From Olivibacter sp. SDN3 (GTDB lineage: Bacteria; Bacteroidota; Bacteroidia; Sphingobacteriales; Sphingobacteriaceae): DNA of 64,000 nucleotides. Where the stretch lies: contig NZ_CP060497.1 of assembly GCF_014334135.1 (NCBI RefSeq), forward strand, positions 2,790,001-2,854,000, written 5' to 3'. A model generated the notes under the pieces. The model ran no database searches. It had not been told where the DNA came from and saw nothing but the letters and a program-made list of their open reading frames with translations. The position numbers and the translations under genes were made by a program. Positions 1,553 to 13,409 of the stretch are shown here, in pieces. Each line of letters begins with the position of its first letter. Position 1 is the stretch's first letter.

Positions 1553-3838
1553 ATGAAACAGCTATGTCTTTTATTTTTTCTTTCCTTTGCCGCAACTGTC
1601 TATGCGCAGGAAGTAGACCAAGTATCCGATCCGGTTACTTACGTCAATACATTGGTAGGTACGCTATCAAAACCCAGTCTTTCTACTGGAAACACTTATC
1701 CTGCTATAGCAAGGCCATGGGGAATGAACTTCTGGTCGCCGCAAACAGGGAAAATGGGAGATGGCTGGATGTATACGTATGACGCAGATAAGATACGCGG
1801 CTTTAAACAGACACATCAGCCGTCTCCATGGATGAATGACTACGGTCAGTTTGCTATTATGCCGGTAACAGGAGAATTAAAATTCACAGAAGATGATCGG
1901 GCAAGTTGGTTTTCCCATAAAGCGGAAGTGGCAACTCCTTACTATTATAGTGTTTACCTTGCGGATCACGATGTTACTACGGAGATTACTCCGACTGAAA
2001 GGGCCGCGCTTTTTAGAGTCACCTTCCCTGAAACGGACAGTGCCTATATTGTTGTTGATGCTTTTGACAAAGGGTCTTACGTAAAAGTGATTCCTCAAGA
2101 AAATAAAATTATCGGTTATACTACTAAAAATAGCGGTGGTGTACCGGAAAATTTTAAGAATTATTTTGTCATTGAATTCGATAAACCTTTTGATAATATC
2201 TCGATTTTTAGCGGAAAGGATTTAAAGGAAGGAGAACTAGAGTTGACAGAAGATCATGTTGGGGCAATTGTTGGTTTTAAAACTGCAAAGGCGGGAGAAC
2301 AGGTTAATATAAAAGTTTCTTCATCTTTTATTAGTCATGAGCAGGCAGAGCTTAATTTACAAGAAATTGGAGGTATGGGATTTGACGACCTAAAAGATAC
2401 AGGTAGAGATGCTTGGAACAAGGTATTGAGCAGGGTAGAAGTCGGCGGCGGAAATATAGATCAAATGCGAACCTTCTATTCTAATTTATACCGGACTTTA
2501 TTATTCCCGAGAATGTTTTATGAGTACGATGCCCAAGGTAATGTTGTCCATTATAGTCCGTATAATGGAAAAGTGCTTCCAGGCTACATGTTTACGGATA
2601 CCGGTTTTTGGGATACGTTCCGTTGCTTATTCCCGTTTTTAAATCTTGTTTATCCGGAAATGAATATCAAAATGCAGGAGGGGCTGGTAAATGCTTATAA
2701 AGAAAGCGGTTGGTTACCTGAATGGGCAAGCCCTGGTTTACGTAATGTAATGGTAGGTAATAACTCGGCATCCGTGGTAGCGGACGCGTACATTAAAGGA
2801 CTTAGGGGTTACGATATTGAAACCTTGTATGAGGCCTTACTACATGGTGCAAATAACGCTGGACCGCTTACCGCTGTAGGAAGGGCTGGAGCAGATTATT
2901 ATAAAGAGTTGGGTTACGTTCCGTACGATGTTGAAATCAACGAAAACGCTGCGCGTACATTAGAGTATGCATATGACGATTTTGCTATTTATCAATTAGC
3001 AAAAAAGCTAAATAAGCCGAAGGACGAAATAGCACTATACCGTAACAGAAGCTTAAATTATCAAAAATTATTTGACAAAGAAACGGGATTGATGCGGGGA
3101 AAGAATAAAGACGGCCAATTTCAGAACCCATTTAATCCGTTTAAGTGGGGGGACGCTTTTACCGAAGGGAATAGTTGGCATTATACGTGGTCTGTATTTC
3201 ACGATGTACAGGGCTTGATCGATCTTATGGGAGGGCAAGAAGCCTTTACAGCAAAATTAGATTCTGTGTTTACGTTGCCACCTGTATTTGACGATAGTTA
3301 TTATGGGCAGGTGATCCATGAGATTCGAGAGATGCAAATAGCTAATATGGGGCAGTACGCACATGGGAACCAACCTATACAACATATGATTTATCTTTAT
3401 AACTACGCAGGTAGGCCGTGGAAAACTCAGTATTGGATTCGAGAGACCCTGAACAGAATGTATTTGCCAACCCCTGATGGTTACTGTGGGGATGAGGACA
3501 ATGGACAAACCTCGGCTTGGTATGTGTTCTCGGCTCTAGGGTTTTACCCGGTAACTCCCGCAACTGATGAATATATAATAGGAGCCCCTTTATTTAAGCG
3601 CGCCAAAATTAGATTGGAGACAGGGAAAGAAATCGTTATCAATGCTCCAAATAACACGCAGGAGAATCGTTATATTGAAGCTGTAAAATTGGACGCGAAA
3701 TCATATAATAAAAATTTCTTTAAACATGAAGATCTCATAAACGGTGCGGTAATCGATTTTGATATGGTAGACATTCCCAACGAACAGCGTGGGACGTCTG
3801 TTGATGCATTACCGTATTCGTTGTCTGTAGAAAAATAA
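1553..3838 (+). CDS. Secreted glycoside hydrolase family 92 (alpha-mannosidase)
   Basis: 761 residues with a cleavable signal peptide (MKQLCLLFFLSFAATVYA, then QEV). The family 92 hallmarks appear in order: GNTYPAIARPWGMNFWSPQ near residue 45, FWDTFRCLFPF near 350, EGNSWHYTW near 538, HGNQP near 603 and CGDEDNGQ near 645. In characterised GH92 enzymes the Glu before GNSW is the general acid and the Asp residues of the last motif support the catalytic base in calcium-dependent, inverting exo-alpha-mannosidase action. Length fits the family. The protein probably acts in the periplasm or at the cell surface on mannose-containing N-glycans; linkage specificity cannot be read from sequence. It is a single gene with its own ~250 bp upstream region, following an outer-membrane barrel gene on the same strand. 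Confidence 0.92.
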   Translation: MKQLCLLFFLSFAATVYAQEVDQVSDPVTYVNTLVGTLSKPSLSTGNTYPAIARPWGMNFWSPQTGKMGDGWMYTYDADKIRGFKQTHQPSPWMNDYGQFAIMPVTGELKFTEDDRASWFSHKAEVATPYYYSVYLADHDVTTEITPTERAALFRVTFPETDSAYIVVDAFDKGSYVKVIPQENKIIGYTTKNSGGVPENFKNYFVIEFDKPFDNISIFSGKDLKEGELELTEDHVGAIVGFKTAKAGEQVNIKVSSSFISHEQAELNLQEIGGMGFDDLKDTGRDAWNKVLSRVEVGGGNIDQMRTFYSNLYRTLLFPRMFYEYDAQGNVVHYSPYNGKVLPGYMFTDTGFWDTFRCLFPFLNLVYPEMNIKMQEGLVNAYKESGWLPEWASPGLRNVMVGNNSASVVADAYIKGLRGYDIETLYEALLHGANNAGPLTAVGRAGADYYKELGYVPYDVEINENAARTLEYAYDDFAIYQLAKKLNKPKDEIALYRNRSLNYQKLFDKETGLMRGKNKDGQFQNPFNPFKWGDAFTEGNSWHYTWSVFHDVQGLIDLMGGQEAFTAKLDSVFTLPPVFDDSYYGQVIHEIREMQIANMGQYAHGNQPIQHMIYLYNYAGRPWKTQYWIRETLNRMYLPTPDGYCGDEDNGQTSAWYVFSALGFYPVTPATDEYIIGAPLFKRAKIRLETGKEIVINAPNNTQENRYIEAVKLDAKSYNKNFFKHEDLINGAVIDFDMVDIPNEQRGTSVDALPYSLSVEK

Positions 3839-3869: not shown

Positions 3870-5174
3870 CTAATATTTAAATAAAGGCAGTGCTTCCGCT
3901 ACGACGAAGGTGCTGCCTCCAATAAATATCAAGTCTTCTTTTGCTGCGTTTTTCCTCGCGGCTGTTAATGCTTGCTCTAAAGTGTTATATGGTTTGCCAA
4001 CTAAACCAAAGTCAGACGAGCGAGTGTATAACTGATCAGCGGGAAGAGCTCTTTCGAAATTAGGATTGCAAAAATAATACGTTGCTTCTTTTGGAAGTAT
4101 ATTTAGCATATGATCTAAATCTTTGTCACGCATAACACCGATGATCATGTGTAGTTTCTTATAGACAGTATGACCGATATTTTTAATTACCTCTCTCCAA
4201 CCGTCTTCATTATGACCTGTGTCGCAGATAATAGTGGGATGATTAGCTAATGTATGCCAACGGCCCATTAATCCGGTAAACTCTTGAGTGGCAGCTAGCC
4301 CTTCATTAATATGCTGTTGGCTGATTTTGAAACCCAACTTGTTTAACTGGATGATACTGGATAGTACACCAATAGCATTTTTTTGTTGATAGCTACCCTT
4401 AAGATCTAGCTTTAATTCAAAATGATTGCACTCATCTTTTAATGATTTGACCTGGAGATATTGGAATTTAATGTCATTTGCTACATTACCTACTAACCAC
4501 TCATCGTTTGCAAAATAGATAGGCGCTTTCTTTTCCTCTGCATGATTAATGAACACCTGATCAATATTGTGTCGACGCTCACTGATTACAACTGGTGTAT
4601 TTTGCTTAATGATACCCGCTTTTTCCTGAGCAATCTTTACCAGCGAATCGCCGAGCATGTCCATGTGATCATAACCGATATTAGTTATGAGACAGACGAT
4701 AGGACTGATGATGTTGGTAGAATCTAAACGGCCTCCGAGTCCCGTTTCTATGATAGCGATATCAACTTGCATCTCATAAAAATATCGAAAAGCCATAACA
4801 GCTGTAACCTCAAAGAAAGAGGGTTTGATTTTTTCGATCAGTGCCTTGTTTTTTCTAATAAAATCAATTACAAATTGCTGAGAAACAAATTGTCCATTGA
4901 TCTTTATTCGTTCTCTAAAATCAAGCAAATGCGGGGAGGTATATAAACCTGTCTTATAGCCCGCCGTCTGGAGTACGGATGCTAGCATATGTGAACTGCT
5001 TCCTTTACCATTCGTGCCAGCTATATGTATACATTTTAGATGTTTGTGCGGATTTCCCAAAGCTTTACAAAGAAGCAACGTGTTCGTTAGATCCTTTTTA
5101 AAAGCAGAAGCTCCGTCACGCGTAAACATAGGTAGACGGCTATAAAGATAATCAATTACCTCAATGTAATTCAT
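3870..5174 (-). CDS. folC: Bifunctional folylpolyglutamate synthase / dihydrofolate synthase
   Basis: 434 residues, normal for FolC. The ATP-binding loop AGTNGKGSSS is at residues 52-61, followed by the folate-loop region SPHLLDFRERIKING and the Mur-ligase-type segment ETGLGGRLDSTN. FolC adds glutamate to dihydropteroate and to reduced folates in the cytoplasm. It is the last gene of a minus-strand block: only 15 bp separate it from the TonB-like gene upstream, so it is probably co-transcribed with the ExbB/ExbD/TonB genes although its function is unrelated. The start ATG at 5174 gives the complete N-terminus expected for the family. Confidence 0.95.
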   Translation of the reverse strand: MNYIEVIDYLYSRLPMFTRDGASAFKKDLTNTLLLCKALGNPHKHLKCIHIAGTNGKGSSSHMLASVLQTAGYKTGLYTSPHLLDFRERIKINGQFVSQQFVIDFIRKNKALIEKIKPSFFEVTAVMAFRYFYEMQVDIAIIETGLGGRLDSTNIISPIVCLITNIGYDHMDMLGDSLVKIAQEKAGIIKQNTPVVISERRHNIDQVFINHAEEKKAPIYFANDEWLVGNVANDIKFQYLQVKSLKDECNHFELKLDLKGSYQQKNAIGVLSSIIQLNKLGFKISQQHINEGLAATQEFTGLMGRWHTLANHPTIICDTGHNEDGWREVIKNIGHTVYKKLHMIIGVMRDKDLDHMLNILPKEATYYFCNPNFERALPADQLYTRSSDFGLVGKPYNTLEQALTAARKNAAKEDLIFIGGSTFVVAEALPLFKY

Positions 5175-5189
5175 GAAATATATAAATCC

Positions 5190-6011
5190 CTACTTCACCT
5201 TGAAGTTGAAAACTACAATACCTGATTGTAAATCAGGACCTCCATCCGTAGCATTTAAACGGGCATTGCGTACAGCAGTTTCACATTTTTCCCAAAGCGT
5301 AGCATCTGATAGTGTGGTGCCCTTAGCTCCTGCGCGAGCACGAGTTACGTTGCCATTTCGGTCGACAGTAATCTCCACGGCAACCCTGCCTGCCAATTGC
5401 CCTTTATCTTCTATCTCTGGCCTTACGGCAAACGATCGATTAGGTAGGCCAACTAAGCCATTACCAGAACCGCCTTCACCATAATTAGCCGCCATATTAT
5501 TACCCTGTAAGCTCCCTTGGTTGCCTGCAGTTGTTCCCGTACCATCGCCAATACCTGAACCATCTTTCTTTTTTCCCGTATACAATGCATTTGGATTAAC
5601 CGTAGGTTTGCTTTCCTTTTTCTCGGGTGTTACTGTAGGGGTAGTGGATGATGGTTTGACATTTTCTTTTGTGACCACTTCCGGCGCATCTTCGACATCT
5701 TGTGTTACAACTGTTTTATCATTTGTTTGTTGAGATACAACAGGTGTAGGTTCTTCGTTTGGCACAACCTTATCTGGAAGTGTTTTGTTTGCATTTGGAT
5801 TTACAGAGGGCTCTTCTAAGCTCATATAATCGTCACCCATGCCCTCATCATCAGTTCCATAGTTTACAATTAGTCCTCCCATACCAAATTCAGGTGCTGG
5901 ATTATTCAACATCCAAAAAAAACATAGAATTAAAAATGCCCCAAATATACCTGATGATATGGCAAAAGCTTTTGGGTAATTATTTTCATGATCTTGCCGA
6001 TGACTATTCAT
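5190..6011 (-). CDS. TonB-family energy transducer
   Basis: 273 residues. A short cytoplasmic N-terminus is followed by one membrane helix (about residues 15-35) and a long Pro/Thr/Val/Glu-rich periplasmic spacer (40-165). A Gly/Asn-rich stretch comes next, then a C-terminal TonB-like domain (about 195-273: GRVAVEITVDRNGNVTRARAG ... GIVVFNFKVK). It would transmit the energy of the ExbB/ExbD motor to an outer-membrane partner. It follows exbD by 17 bp and precedes folC by 15 bp. The partner receptor is unknown, but a receptor-like barrel is encoded upstream in the same block. Confidence 0.85.
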   Translation of the reverse strand: MNSHRQDHENNYPKAFAISSGIFGAFLILCFFWMLNNPAPEFGMGGLIVNYGTDDEGMGDDYMSLEEPSVNPNANKTLPDKVVPNEEPTPVVSQQTNDKTVVTQDVEDAPEVVTKENVKPSSTTPTVTPEKKESKPTVNPNALYTGKKKDGSGIGDGTGTTAGNQGSLQGNNMAANYGEGGSGNGLVGLPNRSFAVRPEIEDKGQLAGRVAVEITVDRNGNVTRARAGAKGTTLSDATLWEKCETAVRNARLNATDGGPDLQSGIVVFNFKVK

Positions 6012-6028
6012 ATTTTACTCCTTCACAC

Positions 6029-6439
6029 TTAACTTTTTTCTTTCGGTTCTGTAGCCAAAACAAGCTTTATTTTAAGTTTATTTGCTATATCCATTACCTC
6101 AATTACATCTTCGATGGCTACAGTTCTGTCTACGTATAAAAGTACCGTTAATTCTTGCCCCTCTTGCACATATGTTTGCAGGGCGGGCATTAATTGATCT
6201 AGCGGTACTTGCTCTTTTTCTACAAAGTACTGTAAATCTTTATTAATAGACAAACTTATTGTTTTTTTAGCAACCGATTGTTCTCCAGACTGGGACCTTG
6301 GGAGCAGTAATTTTACTACTTGTGGATTCGCTACTGCAGACGCTAATAAGAAAAACAATAGTAGAAAGAACATAATATCATTCAATGCTGCAGTATGCAC
6401 TTCGGCGGTTGGTCTATTGTCCCTTTTTCTTAAATTCAT
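6029..6439 (-). CDS. ExbD/TolR biopolymer transport protein
   Basis: 136 residues with a single membrane helix (about 22-40) preceded by the conserved LNDIMFFLLLFFLL segment. The Asp at residue 21 matches the proton-conducting aspartate of ExbD/TolR proteins. The periplasmic part (about 45-130) contains the usual ExbD fold pattern ending in ANKLKIKLVLATEP. Together with the ExbB-like protein encoded just upstream it should form the inner-membrane proton-driven motor that powers the TonB-like protein encoded just downstream. Confidence 0.88.
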   Translation of the reverse strand: MNLRKRDNRPTAEVHTAALNDIMFFLLLFFLLASAVANPQVVKLLLPRSQSGEQSVAKKTISLSINKDLQYFVEKEQVPLDQLMPALQTYVQEGQELTVLLYVDRTVAIEDVIEVMDIANKLKIKLVLATEPKEKS

Positions 6440-6518
6440 TTGAATATTGTTTGTTGATAAAGCAGAAAAATCTCTGCTAACAAATAATTTATCTCCTTAC
6501 GTAAATATAAGTTCGACC

Positions 6519-7220
6519 CTAGCTGCCGGGTTCATCTAATAAATCAATAAACTCAATAGCATCTGTTTCCATACGTAGTATCAAGCGGTCTACCATCATA
6601 TTAAGAATATGATAGCCTACATAAGCTGTAATACCGATAATTAAACCTGTAGCGGAAGTTACCATCTTTGTATATAATCCGCCTGAAATAGTTCCAATTT
6701 CAATCACGCCTGTTAAGGACACTTCGTGAAAAATAGTAATTACACCAATGATGGTACCAACGAAACCGAGCATAGGTGCGATACCAGCGATGATTCCAAG
6801 AATGTTAATGTTCTTTTCGAGCTTGGATACTTCTAATTTACCTACATTTTCGATTGCGCCTTCAATATCTTTTATAGGGCGACCTATACGTGTTAATCCC
6901 TTTTGTAACATGCGGCCGAGCGGTCCGTTACTGTTACGGCATAGCGCTAATGCTGCGTCTAATCTGCCGGACATGATATTCTGTTTTACTTGTATCATTA
7001 GGTTAGAATCGTATCTTGACGCTTTTTTTATCGTTAAATACCTTTCAATAAAGATGACTAAACCTAGAAAAGCAAGGATTGCCAAGGGAAGCATGACCCA
7101 CCCACCTTTAATGAGAAGATCCATTAAACTTAATTCTTCAACGGGTAATGTGGATGCTCCAGGTGAGGTAAGCATAGTGTCTAGTGATGCCGGTGTGTCT
7201 GTTACTTGTAATAAAAACAT
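6519..7220 (-). CDS. MotA/TolQ/ExbB proton channel family protein
   Basis: 233 residues with three membrane helices (about 35-55, 140-165 and 182-207). The typical TolQ/ExbB core segment is present: LGIIAGIAPMLGFVGTIIGV, then GGLYTKMVTSATGLIIGI. The 30-residue periplasmic N-terminus is common in Bacteroidota members. It is the motor subunit paired with the ExbD-like gene 79 bp downstream. Upstream on the same strand is the HU/SPOR protein gene (81 bp gap), so all are probably one operon. Confidence 0.9.
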   Translation of the reverse strand: MFLLQVTDTPASLDTMLTSPGASTLPVEELSLMDLLIKGGWVMLPLAILAFLGLVIFIERYLTIKKASRYDSNLMIQVKQNIMSGRLDAALALCRNSNGPLGRMLQKGLTRIGRPIKDIEGAIENVGKLEVSKLEKNINILGIIAGIAPMLGFVGTIIGVITIFHEVSLTGVIEIGTISGGLYTKMVTSATGLIIGITAYVGYHILNMMVDRLILRMETDAIEFIDLLDEPGS

Positions 7221-7301
7221 GTTTTATAAAATAATAAATTTTTGATGTTACTTCTGTTTGTTTAATATCGTAGCCAAGATATTATTATTTCTTGGTTTTG
7301 T

Positions 7302-8324
7302 CTAAGGATAAATATATGCTTCTACATTTATTTCACTTCTTACTTTTGGTAGATCTTTTTGGGCCTCCTCCTTCGTAGCGTATGAGCCATAACAAATTTT
7401 TTTTCGATTATTGGGCATTTTACTTTCTAATACAAATGCGTTAATGCCTATTGTTCGAAAATATTCTGCTTGTTTAATTGCTAACTCCAAAGTTTTAAAG
7501 GAACCGATTACGATGCTGTATGGTAGTGTTTTTGAAGCTTTCTTTACAATTGGCTCTTCTTCTGTTTTTATCGCATTAGTGGCAGATATAGTGTCAACAT
7601 TTGCAGATGTTGCATTAGTATCTATTGCGCTGGAAGCAGATATTTGGTCACCGTTTTGATAGGTTGTATCTCTTTTTGTTTTGACGGCCGTCGTTGACGA
7701 AGGTGTGCCTGACGTGTTAAAGTACAAAAAATAAAATAACACTATAATAATTGGTACTGTTACAGCAATGGCCCATTTTATCCAGTGATTACTGGTTGTT
7801 TGCGATTCTATATGGGGTAACGGAGCGACGTTTTCCTCATTCTGTTCTCCGATAATTTCAGGAATATTCAGTTCTTCGTCTGAGTATTCGGCAGAATTTG
7901 TTGTGGATGGTAAAACTGGCACATGCTGTACAGAAATATCTCTGATTGGTTGCAGGGCAGGTAAGGGTGAAACGAAAGGCACAAGTACATATGAGTTATC
8001 CTTCTGTTTAAGAAAACCTATTTTATCCAGCTCAACTTCTCCTTTATTAGCGATTTCACTGAGTAGTTTAGAAACGGTCAAATCTATTTTTTCACGTGCT
8101 TGTTCATGGGATATTTGTTCTTTTTTGACAAGAAAATCTAATAAAATATAGTCAACAGTCGCATGCGACAATAATGCGTATGTAAATACTGGAGGCACAA
8201 ATTGCCCTTCTTCTTTATTAAAGCCAGCGGCAATACGTTCCTTGCGAAAGATACCTATCCCAGGCACACCAATCTGCTCATGAATGAGTAATAACTGATA
8301 TAAGTATTGGCCAATATTAAACAT
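7302..8324 (-). CDS. HU-like (CCDC81 type) - transmembrane - SPOR domain protein
   Basis: 340 residues with an unusual three-part build. Residues 1-118 resemble the prokaryotic CCDC81-like HU pair (a first segment with GVPGIGIFRKER, a second with GEVELDKIGFLKQKDN). These are predicted to be cytoplasmic and HU-fold. Residues 181-202 form one membrane helix. An Ala/Thr/Ser-rich linker leads to a C-terminal SPOR domain (about 268-340: YSIVIGSFKTLELAIKQAEYF ... KICYGSYATKEEAQKDL), a domain known to bind denuded septal peptidoglycan. The protein could therefore link a cytoplasmic nucleic-acid or protein partner to the division-site cell wall. It sits between the plugless barrel gene and the ExbB-like gene on the same strand. 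Domain calls are from recognised motifs; the linking role is inference. Confidence 0.82.
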   Translation of the reverse strand: MFNIGQYLYQLLLIHEQIGVPGIGIFRKERIAAGFNKEEGQFVPPVFTYALLSHATVDYILLDFLVKKEQISHEQAREKIDLTVSKLLSEIANKGEVELDKIGFLKQKDNSYVLVPFVSPLPALQPIRDISVQHVPVLPSTTNSAEYSDEELNIPEIIGEQNEENVAPLPHIESQTTSNHWIKWAIAVTVPIIIVLFYFLYFNTSGTPSSTTAVKTKRDTTYQNGDQISASSAIDTNATSANVDTISATNAIKTEEEPIVKKASKTLPYSIVIGSFKTLELAIKQAEYFRTIGINAFVLESKMPNNRKKICYGSYATKEEAQKDLPKVRSEINVEAYIYP

Positions 8325-8373
8325 GCGCTTAATTCTTTAATAAGTATTGTGACAAATTTAGAAAGGTTAAATA

Positions 8374-10110
8374 TTAAAAAGAAACATTTAACCCGCCGAT
8401 CACATTAAATCCTAAACGGGGATAATATAGAAAGCGTTGATAACTATTGCTCAGCAGATTATTCCCTCTGACATACACACCGATCTGCTTGGTGGCACGA
8501 TATTCAATACCAGCGCTGATATCAGCGAATGCTGGAAGAGAAACGGTGACTGGAGCGTCAGGATCACCTCCTATACCTACATATTTATTGTATGAACGTG
8601 CTTTCATAGCATCATTAAAGAATAACTCCCCGTCAATATAAACTTTCTTACCTATGTTAATCCTAGTGTTGGCCGCAACCCTTAATTTTGGAATAAACCA
8701 AGCTTCGGCTTCATTTTCTAGATCATACTCGTTGAATATTAGGTTCCCGCCAAGTGTAAAAGCCTCTGATACACGTACGTTGACATCTCCCTCAAAACCA
8801 AAAACAGTATTTTTTTCACCTCTATCGTAGATAATATCGTATCTAGAAGGGTTATTAGGGCTTATTGTATAAAGCGGAAGGTCGCTCAATTGCTTATAGA
8901 AGATACCGATCTTATAGCCCAAGGTGGCACCGGCATTGCCCTTAATACCACCAAAAGCATGAATCTTCTCTAACATATTATGGATAACAAGCGTGTTGGT
9001 ATTATTCAATGAGTCTATAAAAGGCCTCTCCATTAAAAATGGGTTTTCATTTGCTAACGTTCTGAAAGATGTTTTGACGACATCTCCTTTAACTCCAGCA
9101 TATAAACTAGCGTATTCCGGTACTAGAGCAAAATCCAAGTCAACCGTTGGGAAGATATTGTTACGGCTTTCATCTCCTCCGAATTCGCTTACTAGAGTAG
9201 CTCCCAACGTGATTTTATAATTGTTTCCTTGAAAGCGGATGTAGGGATTTAATCGAGCAATATGGTTAGCCAAACTCTGGTTTTGACTTTGAACATTTGT
9301 GAAGTCTCCAGACACGTTTGCACCGAGATTGAAGGCATTTATCTTTTTGTTTAAATTACCACTTAATGCAAAAGAGTTTTCTCTCGCAGAAAACGCGTTA
9401 CCAAATAAATAGCCATCTGCTCTTAATGAATAACTCAACAATTCGTCATTTTCCTCGTAATTACTGTTCAGTTCACCTTTTATGTAAAGGTCATTATAAT
9501 GCTGTTTGGTAGGATCATTGTTTAAGTCTGGTTGTAAAGGTACAAATCCATAATATCGTGTTGCATATCTGTTAAAACCTATTTCACCGTTTAATGTAAT
9601 TTGATCCAGAATACTTCTGCCAAACAAACCTACCTTTTGTTCACTAAAATTTTGTCCTGTTAACTCCGTGCCTTTTTGGCTGAGATGTTTAATAAATCCA
9701 CCTACTTGTAAGGCTTCATCCTCACCGTTACTAATATAAACTTCACCTAGCAACGTGTTAAAGTTTCCTACACCAATTTTAGCATAATTGTTAGTAAGTA
9801 CGTCTGGTCTGGCTGTTGGCACTTCCTGAATTTCTAAACGGTGTGTGCCGGTATTTATATCTAATTTTTTATCAAAGATGTTATAGTTGAGCTTCGACAG
9901 GTATTTGCGCTCGTTGGTTAAATCGGGACTCTGTCTAATTTTTACGGCGTCTGCCAATATTGGCTTATAGTCTCTTATTACTTCGATTTCACCCAATTGA
10001 CCTTTAGCCTCTTCATTAGGATCCTGCTCCTCTTGAGAAAAAGCAGTAAAGGAATAAAGCCCAAAACTGATTAATAATGTATATCTAAACATTGAATGAT
10101 TCAATATCAT
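8374..10110 (-). CDS. Plugless TonB-receptor-like outer-membrane barrel protein
   Basis: The open frame begins at 10158, but the ATG at 10110 gives a clean signal peptide (MILNHSMFRYTLLISFGLYSFTAFSQ), so that start is preferred (578 residues). The short periplasmic N-terminus carries EIEVIRDYKPILADAVKI, a motif recurrent in Bacteroidota barrels encoded beside TPR proteins, and no TonB plug domain. The rest is beta strands ending in GLNVISF-like aromatic C-terminal residues (NVIGGLNVSF). It is encoded 27 bp downstream of the TPR protein start block and upstream of the HU/SPOR and ExbB/D/TonB genes, so a structural or secretion role driven by that motor is possible. No substrate can be proposed. 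Confidence 0.78.
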   Translation of the reverse strand: MILNHSMFRYTLLISFGLYSFTAFSQEEQDPNEEAKGQLGEIEVIRDYKPILADAVKIRQSPDLTNERKYLSKLNYNIFDKKLDINTGTHRLEIQEVPTARPDVLTNNYAKIGVGNFNTLLGEVYISNGEDEALQVGGFIKHLSQKGTELTGQNFSEQKVGLFGRSILDQITLNGEIGFNRYATRYYGFVPLQPDLNNDPTKQHYNDLYIKGELNSNYEENDELLSYSLRADGYLFGNAFSARENSFALSGNLNKKINAFNLGANVSGDFTNVQSQNQSLANHIARLNPYIRFQGNNYKITLGATLVSEFGGDESRNNIFPTVDLDFALVPEYASLYAGVKGDVVKTSFRTLANENPFLMERPFIDSLNNTNTLVIHNMLEKIHAFGGIKGNAGATLGYKIGIFYKQLSDLPLYTISPNNPSRYDIIYDRGEKNTVFGFEGDVNVRVSEAFTLGGNLIFNEYDLENEAEAWFIPKLRVAANTRINIGKKVYIDGELFFNDAMKARSYNKYVGIGGDPDAPVTVSLPAFADISAGIEYRATKQIGVYVRGNNLLSNSYQRFLYYPRLGFNVIGGLNVSF

Positions 10111-10184
10111 GGTTTTTTTCTTTGTAGTTATTGTCTGCGGTTTAAAAAACCTATTCATATTTTTCCTGATGAAAATTTTTGAGA

Positions 10185-13100
10185 CTAGAAATTATTTTCC
10201 ATTATCCGCGAAGTGTCTATCGCCGTGGAATCTGTTCCTATATTATCTACATCCAAACTGTCTGTTTCTATATCTAAACTATCGGTTGTTAAACTGTCTG
10301 TTTCCAAGTTGTCCACACCTATACTATCTACATTCAAAGAGTCATCTTTATTTTCTGTATCAATAGATTTTTCTGGGTCTAGTTTTTCTCCTGTTATTTT
10401 CTCTAAACGCTCTTTAGCACTAGGAATAATATCATCGTCTTCTTCATAATTTTCGATAATACTTTGGAGTGTGCTTTTTGCCTGGAATTCGTCTTTAAGT
10501 TTGATGTAACAATCCGAAAGTAAGATAAAGCTTTTGGCTACCCAATAATCATAAGAAGGCATGTTTTTAATCAAGTCAAATGCAGTTTCCTGTGCTGTTT
10601 TGTACTCGCCTGCTTCATATTGTAATTTTCCTAAATTGTATTTGGCTTCAGCACCTACAACCGTTTGACTGGTTGAAATAGCCTCATTTAGTTCTTTTTT
10701 AGCTGTATTTAAATCTCCTTTAAGCATGTGAGCTCGTGCAGCGTACAGGCTGGCCTTGGCATTGTCTTCTTTTGATGATTTCTCATATTCTTTTACATAT
10801 CGAGAATACATCAGCGTGTTGTCGAAATCATTGATATGGAAATAAGCAACCATTAAGTTATTGATGGCAAATCCATAATGAGACTGGTACTCCGCTGTGA
10901 GCTCAAGTTTTTTTAACGGGGCAATTGCTTCATTGTACTTTTTTTGGTCTAAATAGAGGTTGGATACACTTAATAAGGTCCGCTCGGTATAAGCGCTGGT
11001 CCAATCATTTAATATAATATTAAAATCATGTAAAGCCTCTTGCGGATGCCCTGTTTTATATAAACTCTCTGCACGAATAAAACGGGCAAATTTCTCTTGT
11101 AACGGTTTAGGAAACTTGTCGAAATATGCATTTACAGCGTCTATTGCAGCTTCATATTCACCTCGTGAAAAATAGTTGTTTGCCACTTGGAAGGTTATAT
11201 TATCTTGCTCTGAAGTCGATAAATCGCCCAGTGCGGTAGTGCCTGCATAGTCTAAAAAGCCTTGCGCATCTCCTTTGTCAAGATAAATATTTTGTATTGA
11301 TTTTAATGCCTGTTTAGCTTCATCTGTAGTGGCATGTTGCTCTACTACTCGTTGAAAAGTTCGTACTGCGGCATCATTATTGTCTTCATTATACTGAACA
11401 AGACCTATAGTAACTAGGGCTCTGGCAACGTAACTACTGCGAGGATACTTCTCTATCATATCTTGTAAGCCCTGTATGGCAATTTCGTTTTCACCTTTGA
11501 GAAAAAAGGTATAAGGAATTTCAAAACTGGCGTCATCTGCATAATTCGAGTTTGGATACCTTGCCAAAAGATCTGTCATGATACTGATCTTGCCATCGGC
11601 ATCGCCTTGGAGCCCTCTGATAATACCACTTTGAAAGAGGGCGTAATCCTGTGTTTTGGCTTTGGAACTCATTAATTTATTATACTGTTCCATAGCCCGG
11701 CCATAGTCTTTTAACATAAAATAAGAATCACCCAACCTTGCGATGGCATCATTGCGGGTGTTTAACTCGATGGGTGCACCGCTGCTCAGAAATTTACCAA
11801 AATAATTTGCAGAGATGCGGTAATTACTGTTTCGGAACGCCGCATAGGCTAAGGCGTAATTAGCATAATTATATACATCTGTATTTTTAGCAGCCGGATA
11901 ATTCAGGAATCGAGCAAAATTGTCGGTGGCTTCACCGTATTTCCTTACTTCGTACATAGCTTCCGCCTTCCAATAGGCAGCTAAAGCCAATAATTCCGGA
12001 TCAATCGGGTTTTGTTCGGAACGCATAAAAATGGATATAGCATTTTCAAACGCTCGTTCATTATAATATTCTAATCCTCTATAATAGGTAACTTTTTGAT
12101 AGGCTGCATCAGCTTCTTTATTGCGTTTAGGGATTGACTCCAGTACATCAACAGCAGCACGATAATTTTTTGTGCTTAACAGTACTTCTGCAAGTAAGGT
12201 CTTGGCTTCGTTCAGGTTCTCAGAACGGGGATACGTTCTTAAGTATTCTTGCGTAGCGTCTAAGGCCACTTGGTGAAATTCTAACTCATAAGAAAGTTTG
12301 GCATAATTCAAAAGGCCCTGTTCCTTCATAGAAGGATCAAAATCTAACTTCGAAGCTCTGAAAAAAGCATTACGAGCACTCTCTTTATTACCTGACTGGA
12401 TAAACGAATCACCTAAAAGAATCATGCCACTTTGGAAATAGGCATCTGGATCCGTTAATTTTTCCAACTCCTTGATTGCCTTTTCGTAATCTCCGTTTTT
12501 ATAGGCGATATAGCCTATCTGATAATCGTCTTGATTGTTCTGCGTTTTGCCTTGATCTTTTGCTTGGAATTTATCATAATACTCTTTTGATTTGCCCAGG
12601 TCGTTTTTTGCGAAGTAGGTTGCGCCTAAAATGCGGAATATTTCCGTTTCATTTTCCTGTTTTGTCTTTTCGACGATTGGCAATATATAGGCGAGGACAT
12701 CATCGTATCGTTTATCTAAAAAGTAAAGCGCGGCAATATAATACGGATAACTATTTTCATAAGTTTTAGACCCTTTTAAACGTTCAAATTCGCGCAAAGC
12801 CTCTTTATATTCGCTATCTAAATAACAAATATAAGCGTAATAATAAACAGAAGCCTCCTGGTACTGGTTTCTTTCATCTTTTAAGCGAGCAAATAACGGT
12901 TTTGCTGTCTGATAGTCTTCGGTCATAAACAATGCATAGCCAAGCTTAAACCGATATTCCGTATTTTCTCCTCCACTCAAGTTACCGCCGTCTAACCTAT
13001 TAAACCATTCGATAGCTTTTGTGTAATTTTTCTGATTAAAGTAAGATCGTCCTACTTGAAAATAGGCCGCTTTAGTATTGGAGCTAGTCGGATGATCTTT

Positions 13101-13409
13101 GATGAATTTGAGAAAAAGCCCTTCTGCATCATGATTGCCTAGCTCTAGCGCACATACAGCTTGATAGAACCGAGCGTTTTCTTTTAGGAGTGAAATTTGA
13201 TCGCTTTCATCTTCTTGTATCGTAGTTTTTGTTCGTATTTCCTCTACTTTACCTAACTGATTGTATGCTGCAGCGTATTTGCCTCTTTCATATAATTCCA
13301 TGCCTGTTTTATACGCCTGATTGAGTGACTGCCAAGCACTTTGTTGTGCCATTGCATTACCTGCGAAAAGGCTAAGTATTAAGCTTATACGAGTGAAATT
13401 TTTAAACAT
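10185..13409 (-). CDS. Large periplasmic tetratricopeptide-repeat protein
   Basis: 1074 residues with a signal peptide (MFKNFTRISLILSLFAGNAMA). TPR-type helical hairpins then run almost continuously from about residue 30 to 1000 (for example YFQVGRSYFNQKNYTKAIEWF, ARLGDSYFMLKDYGRAMEQYN, YNLGKLQYEAGEYKTAQE). The last ~50 residues are an acidic low-complexity tail of imperfect DSL/VDS/TDS units. Such proteins act as scaffolds for protein complexes at the periplasmic face of the outer membrane. First gene of the seven-gene minus-strand block, with a ~175 bp AT-rich upstream region and the barrel gene directly downstream. The individual partners are not known. Confidence 0.85.
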   Translation of the reverse strand: MFKNFTRISLILSLFAGNAMAQQSAWQSLNQAYKTGMELYERGKYAAAYNQLGKVEEIRTKTTIQEDESDQISLLKENARFYQAVCALELGNHDAEGLFLKFIKDHPTSSNTKAAYFQVGRSYFNQKNYTKAIEWFNRLDGGNLSGGENTEYRFKLGYALFMTEDYQTAKPLFARLKDERNQYQEASVYYYAYICYLDSEYKEALREFERLKGSKTYENSYPYYIAALYFLDKRYDDVLAYILPIVEKTKQENETEIFRILGATYFAKNDLGKSKEYYDKFQAKDQGKTQNNQDDYQIGYIAYKNGDYEKAIKELEKLTDPDAYFQSGMILLGDSFIQSGNKESARNAFFRASKLDFDPSMKEQGLLNYAKLSYELEFHQVALDATQEYLRTYPRSENLNEAKTLLAEVLLSTKNYRAAVDVLESIPKRNKEADAAYQKVTYYRGLEYYNERAFENAISIFMRSEQNPIDPELLALAAYWKAEAMYEVRKYGEATDNFARFLNYPAAKNTDVYNYANYALAYAAFRNSNYRISANYFGKFLSSGAPIELNTRNDAIARLGDSYFMLKDYGRAMEQYNKLMSSKAKTQDYALFQSGIIRGLQGDADGKISIMTDLLARYPNSNYADDASFEIPYTFFLKGENEIAIQGLQDMIEKYPRSSYVARALVTIGLVQYNEDNNDAAVRTFQRVVEQHATTDEAKQALKSIQNIYLDKGDAQGFLDYAGTTALGDLSTSEQDNITFQVANNYFSRGEYEAAIDAVNAYFDKFPKPLQEKFARFIRAESLYKTGHPQEALHDFNIILNDWTSAYTERTLLSVSNLYLDQKKYNEAIAPLKKLELTAEYQSHYGFAINNLMVAYFHINDFDNTLMYSRYVKEYEKSSKEDNAKASLYAARAHMLKGDLNTAKKELNEAISTSQTVVGAEAKYNLGKLQYEAGEYKTAQETAFDLIKNMPSYDYWVAKSFILLSDCYIKLKDEFQAKSTLQSIIENYEEDDDIIPSAKERLEKITGEKLDPEKSIDTENKDDSLNVDSIGVDNLETDSLTTDSLDIETDSLDVDNIGTDSTAIDTSRIMENNF

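Follow-up and report, generated by a model that had tools for sequence, protein, structure and literature searches.

A widely conserved Bacteroidota operon combining an ExbB/ExbD/TonB motor with a plugless barrel, a TPR protein and a SPOR protein: a candidate for a Tol-Pal-like role

Gene content and organization of the operon

The operon described here is encoded by Olivibacter sp. SDN3 and lies in a 64,000-nucleotide stretch of its complete 6.12 Mb genome (contig NZ_CP060497.1, positions 2,790,001 to 2,854,000; hereafter the window, to which coordinates refer unless another locus is named). Six genes occupy positions 5190-13409, all on the reverse strand, and encode, in order of transcription, a tetratricopeptide repeat (TPR) protein, an outer-membrane barrel, a protein that combines HU domains with a transmembrane (TM) segment and a SPOR domain, ExbB, ExbD and TonB, with FolC next in line. 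As the initial annotation had described, the genes share one strand and are separated by short gaps of 15-81 bp, i.e., 26, 49, 81, 79, 17 and 15 bp from the TPR gene through to FolC, while PyrB is located 176 bp upstream of the operon. That annotation had also placed FolC within the interval 5190-13409, whereas it in fact lies outside, at 3870-5174 on the same strand (TIGR01499, ~1e-107).

Pfam and NCBIfam matches were obtained for every operon protein except the barrel. The TPR protein (10185-13409; 1074 residues, with a signal peptide recognized by eye) has Pfam TPRs and NCBIfam tol_pal_ybgF and BamD-type TPR matches, and is predicted to act as a periplasmic hub. An acidic, repeat-rich tail of TDSL/VDS units is present at its C-terminus (10185-10400). 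The barrel (8374-10158; 594 residues, with a signal peptide and some 22 predicted strands) carries a conserved N-terminal peptide, EIEVIRDYKPILADAVKIRQSPDL, whose codons, delimited approximately by alignment and a motif survey, span 9915-9982; its assignment draws on AlphaFold2 (AF2), Foldseek, a family alignment and a survey of the phylum. The third gene (7302-8324) encodes a bitopic HU(CCDC81-like)-TM-SPOR protein of 340 residues (PF18174, PF18175 and PF05036, all above cut-off). The remaining three genes specify an ExbB/TolQ-type proton channel subunit (6519-7220; PF01618, 4e-21), an ExbD/TolR-type subunit with a conserved TM aspartate (6029-6439; PF02472, 2.7e-25; aligned with ExbD and TolR of Escherichia coli) and a TonB-like force transducer composed of an N-terminal TM segment, a low-complexity linker and a TonB_C-like C-terminus (5190-6011).

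Conservation of the gene set across the phylum

Among 247 genomes drawn evenly from the phylum, a profile search located the barrel gene in 170, which cover 103 of the 122 genera; no sampled genome from the class of Olivibacter lacked it. This distribution suggests a core function rather than an accessory one in nutrient uptake. For 87 barrel-bearing genera, representing 36 families, gene neighbourhoods were then retrieved, translated in six frames and searched with profiles that started from the window proteins. The barrel gene has the TPR gene as a neighbour in 73 of the 87 genera (33 families), an HU/SPOR gene in 66 (23 families) and ExbB, ExbD and TonB in 40 (11 families), while all six genes occur together in 27 (7 families), the complete set being found in Pedobacter, Sphingobacterium, Mucilaginibacter and Hymenobacter. 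The order TPR-barrel-HU/SPOR-ExbB-ExbD-TonB is constant in every genus, with members missing or doubled in some. The recurrence of this one order throughout the phylum places the gene set far beyond chance; the set is syntenic across many families, not merely among close relatives, and its conservation is much deeper than the reading of a single sequence could reveal.

FolC, which the initial annotation had counted as a seventh member, does adjoin the set in the window, but is the least conserved partner, being part of the cluster in only 12 of the 87 genera (4 families). On account of this sporadic presence it was rejected as a component of the machine, and it is probably just a cotranscribed neighbour.

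Where the operon is split, the TPR-barrel and ExbB-ExbD-TonB segments each stay intact (families, genomes and loci are referred to by f, G and L numbers, respectively). For example, families f20, f21 and f26 carry TPR-barrel at one locus and ExbB-ExbD-TonB at a second, the latter frequently accompanied by FolC. TPR-barrel-HU-TonB without ExbB/ExbD was observed in f29, f37, f39, f42 and f47, while in G225 (L046, L122) TonB and FolC remain with TPR-barrel-HU and ExbB-ExbD is located elsewhere, indicating that TonB can be linked to the barrel even where its motor genes are not.

The barrel and its N-terminal peptide

The window barrel returned no Pfam match at all, and hence no match to the Plug domain. 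In an AF2 model built on an alignment of 20 sequences (mean predicted local distance difference test score (pLDDT) 74, predicted template modelling score (pTM) 0.68), residues 1-121 are disordered and are followed by a barrel of ~22 strands from residue ~122 to 594. A Foldseek search of the PDB returned only TonB-dependent receptors as top matches (FpvA, FhuE and BtuB, with template modelling scores of ~0.55). The mature region that precedes the barrel comprises ~80 residues, disordered in the model, and as modelled is too short to form a plug. These data agree with the earlier description of a plugless, TonB-receptor-like barrel.

Every barrel starts with a conserved peptide, the form of which varies by lineage: EIEVVRxYKPxLADAxKIR in the class of Olivibacter, LPEIxPQDIEIRGxFxxRFPG in f38-type families and LPxFVITGxxxI in basal families, the last of which (e.g., EFVITG) resembles a TonB box in sequence. 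A TonB-box-like regular expression matched 26 of 86 barrels as against 3.0 in shuffled sequences, an excess that is suggestive only, since the barrel rows are mutually related. The initial annotation had pointed out that TonB normally serves receptors with a plug, which the operon barrel lacks; the plug is indeed absent, but the TonB-box-like peptide makes contact between TonB and the barrel more plausible than had been held.

The third gene product: SPOR is widespread, HU is lineage-specific

In the window copy the HU-CCDC81_bac_1, HU-CCDC81_bac_2 and SPOR domains all exceed their Pfam cut-offs, with SPOR located at residues 269-335 (PF05036, 23.2 bits against a cut-off of 21) and the TM segment, as judged by eye, near residues 180-200. 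This arrangement, paired HU-CCDC81 domains followed by a TM segment and SPOR, is shared by f20-type genomes, while the protein encoded at this position in basal families has SPOR and no detected HU. SPOR is therefore the widespread part of this gene and HU is specific to particular lineages, so that the previously proposed HU-TM-SPOR component is confirmed in its domains but not in the constancy of HU. SPOR domains of studied proteins bind denuded glycan at the septum, and this family knowledge points to the septal wall as the predicted destination of the third protein.

Of note, several Flavobacteriaceae-like genomes carry a displaced HU-SPOR gene near an M23 peptidase of EnvC-like length with a coiled-coil start, a proximity that favours the Tol-Pal-like reading set out below. 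At five such loci (L093, L095, L096, L069 and L089), the displaced gene and the M23 peptidase gene are accompanied by an acyl-CoA thioesterase-like gene and mostly also by dprA- and trpS-like genes.

The motor and its relationship to Ton systems

Alignment with the E. coli proteins shows that the proton-path residues are conserved, both the TM aspartate in ExbD (near residue 21 of the window protein) and the TM threonines in ExbB. The TolQ/TolR-type motor domains are a feature of the superfamily that is common to ExbBD, and hence do not discriminate between Tol and Ton. The TonB_C match of the window transducer is weak (0.0086, below the cut-off), while two of the three orthologues scanned (L124, L057) score above it.

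The Olivibacter genome possesses three ExbD genes, one of them in the operon and the other two in tandem at a distinct ExbB-ExbD-ExbD-TonB locus; a separate tandem-ExbD Ton system of this kind is also present in most genomes checked. A phylogenetic tree of ExbB unites the operon copies with the single-ExbD copies from split operons in one clade of 38 rows (support 99/94) which follows the families. The tandem-ExbD copies, ExbB and TolQ of E. coli, and TolQ of Chlorobiaceae all fall outside this clade, as do, just beyond it and with lower support, the operon ExbB proteins of L055, L063 and L124. The deep forks of the tree are uncertain because of some long branches and lower support. On the evidence of this tree, the operon motor appears as one vertically inherited lineage, apart from the ordinary Ton system. 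A contig labelled Beijerinckiaceae (L242), probably mis-binned, was also observed to carry a Bacteroidota-type ExbB.

A rival explanation holds that the motor is a second ordinary Ton system, which energises plug-bearing receptors encoded elsewhere, and that barrel and TPR protein constitute an old, separate porin or exporter that happens to share the operon. The transducer does have a TonB_C rather than a TolA domain, the two halves lie far apart in f20 and f21, and the single-ExbD system exbB1-exbD1-tonB1 of Riemerella anatipestifer, which is dispensable, was able to power a haemin receptor in E. coli (PMC4446302). That system may be orthologous to the operon motor, and, as it can act on an ordinary haemin receptor, the motor may not be dedicated to the barrel everywhere; a dual or shifted role in some lineages is possible. 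Against this explanation, the halves are joined repeatedly in distant families in one fixed order, TonB alone can remain with the barrel, and the tandem-ExbD locus already provides a Ton system in Olivibacter and in most of the other genomes. We consider it unlikely.

Relationship to TolB and Tol-Pal

At a threshold of E<1e-150, full-length TolB was identified in 53 genomes, all of which belong to family f32, the next best hits being partial propeller matches at 5e-34 or worse. Family f32 corresponds to Chlorobiaceae, based on the FMO protein of green sulfur bacteria (8 genomes tested), and the complete tolQ-R-A-B-pal-cpoB order was found at the two f32 loci inspected. The barrel profile search was negative for all f32 genomes. 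Weak f32 matches to one barrel profile (A1) were attributed to ordinary plug-bearing receptors (L066) and were gone with a broader profile (A2). Of the 247 genomes, 170 have the barrel and no full-length TolB and 24 have neither at these thresholds; barrel and TolB thus do not overlap in this sample.

Searches for TolB_N and full-length TolB were negative in the Olivibacter genome, as were those for full-length TolB at the above threshold in all genomes outside f32; TolB_N matches of ~1000-residue proteins in f44 and weak TolB matches elsewhere were rejected as partial propeller matches. Furthermore, no operon copy contains a TolB-like gene, and no Pal/OmpA-type gene is found among the operon genes, whereas the Chlorobiaceae locus L127 has one. 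The operon is therefore not a Tol-Pal system, TolB and Pal being absent, nor is it a strict TonB-dependent receptor system, as the plug is absent. It may nonetheless work like Tol-Pal. A 2025 evolutionary survey did not find Tol-Pal loci in Bacteroidetes and expected other systems that stabilise the outer membrane (PMC12204202).

A TPR paralogue that carries the barrel peptide

Elsewhere in its genome, Olivibacter encodes an 844-residue protein (L091:6867-9401; C1:2496867-2499401) in which a signal peptide and a barrel-type N-terminal peptide, ESIDVIRDYRPMLADAVKIRRSPDM, are joined to a paralogue of the TPR protein that lacks the first repeats; the fusion has no barrel. It was also found in seven further genomes of the family Sphingobacteriaceae (L098-L103 and L097:9495-11981), for a total of eight genera or species. 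In one of these, G007, the fusion gene (L097:9495-11981) separates the TPR gene from the barrel gene within the operon itself, a position suggesting an origin through deletion in a tandem duplicate. Retention of the fusion with its peptide conserved implies that the peptide is useful without a barrel, either for binding to TonB or for binding to the TPR protein.

This fusion also bears on the explanation that the genes have no common function and that their order is kept for expression only. Unrelated housekeeping genes (FolC, PyrB) can indeed adjoin the set, but most families have lost these two and kept the six envelope genes, and the barrel peptide is joined to a TPR paralogue in eight genera or species; we regard this explanation as highly improbable.

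Comparison with known machineries

The operon resembles Tol-Pal in having a motor of the same superfamily driven by the proton-motive force (PMF), a TolA/TonB-type transducer, a periplasmic TPR protein and a peptidoglycan-directed part, and also in being near-universal in its own range, its spread being complementary to that of TolB in the phylum sample. In contrast to Tol-Pal, it has neither TolB nor Pal/OmpA, possesses a plugless barrel and a bitopic SPOR protein, carries a TonB_C instead of a TolA domain, and has an ExbB clade apart from TolQ of E. coli and Chlorobiaceae. With Ton systems it shares ExbB, ExbD and TonB and the receptor-type barrel fold, and the N-terminal peptide recalls a TonB box in basal lineages, but its barrel lacks a plug, it includes TPR and SPOR proteins, and it coexists with a separate tandem-ExbD Ton system.

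The Glt/Agl gliding and Nfs machineries of Myxococcus combine a TolQR-type motor, TonB-like transducers, TPR proteins and outer-membrane barrels. The operon resembles this parts list; to our knowledge, these machineries lack SPOR and HU parts, and, unlike Glt/Agl, the operon occurs in non-gliding lineages. The operon might accordingly be read as a Glt/Agl-like or secretion-like machine that moves or exports cargo such as a lipoprotein, glycan or surface adhesin, either through the outer membrane or along it. In NCBIfam, the window TonB scores highest with the AgmX/PglI C-terminal domain (22 bits, below its cut-off of 40), which would fit such a machine, and an empty barrel could serve as a conduit. 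However, near-universality in the phylum is not expected of an accessory gliding or secretion trait, SPOR family knowledge indicates the septal wall, and no cargo gene is conserved in the operon; this explanation is improbable to much the same degree as that of a second Ton system.

PorE, a TPR-containing protein, has likewise been proposed for the Tol-Pal gap in this phylum, but is a single fused lipoprotein with an OmpA-like domain, has no motor of its own and belongs to an unrelated gene set (PMC12204202). PorE and the operon could act together.

Proposed function

The six proteins very probably work together in a single trans-envelope complex, whose physical assembly we infer from the combined evidence. 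In the reading that we favour, the six genes encode a PMF-driven complex, ancestral to most of Bacteroidota, which performs Tol-Pal-like work, and we assign this full mechanism a probability of roughly 0.47. An ExbB5-ExbD2-type motor in the inner membrane would move the TonB-like transducer. The pull of the transducer would fall either on the barrel's N-terminal peptide or on the periplasmic TPR hub, itself docked to the barrel, while the bitopic SPOR protein would hold the motor at septal, denuded peptidoglycan. The most likely work of the complex would be to couple the outer membrane mechanically to the wall and the inner membrane as the cell constricts, the task of Tol-Pal elsewhere. The division-site role, which the initial annotation had already suggested for a PMF-driven, Tol-Pal-like or secretion-like complex, the septal location and the contact between TonB and the peptide are those parts of the proposal that we infer; the gene content, its deeply conserved order, the separate orthologous motor, the missing plug, the conserved peptide and the spread complementary to that of TolB are observed. 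A more far-reaching version, in which the operon is the missing counterpart of Tol-Pal, with a motor pulling the plugless barrel and TPR hub where SPOR marks the septum, is more tentative, and we lean against it; in this version the operon would be ancestral to the phylum and would have given way to classical Tol-Pal in green sulfur bacteria.

Several observations weigh against a Tol-Pal-like role. The exclusion between TolB and the barrel rests on one clade (f32), and constitutes a single evolutionary contrast rather than 53. Families f20 and f21 keep only TPR and barrel together, the third protein of f18 has HU without SPOR, and the likeness to a TonB box is weak in Bacteroidia, where the peptide has drifted to EVVRxYKP. 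An AF2 model of the fusion protein, used as a stand-in for a peptide-TPR complex, folded the TPR part with confidence and did not place the peptide (pLDDT 26-46), and docking of the peptide on the TPR protein thus obtained no structural support. The Riemerella system can power a haemin receptor, as described above, and PorE has been proposed as the outer membrane-peptidoglycan tether of Bacteroidetes (PMC12204202). Finally, no experiment on a Tol-Pal-like division-site role was found in the accessible literature, nor was any account of the operon, although subscription papers and preprints were outside the search, so that novelty is unproven.

The 2025 survey raised the question of what stabilises and constricts the outer membrane in Bacteroidetes without Tol-Pal (PMC12204202). 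The operon occurs in every sampled genome of its class, brings along a motor of its own and a protein directed to peptidoglycan, and is missing from the only sampled family with classical Tol-Pal. It is a good candidate for the Bacteroidota system that fills this role, and opens the question to direct testing in strains amenable to genetics. It would also represent a use of a plug-free receptor-type barrel coupled to a Ton-type motor.

Other features of the window

Two further genes lie downstream of FolC on the forward strand. Positions 104-1303 encode an outer-membrane barrel of the Pfam family OMP_b-brl_3, apparently cut by the start of the window, and positions 1553-3838 encode a secreted protein of 761 residues, a putative GH92-type alpha-mannosidase.

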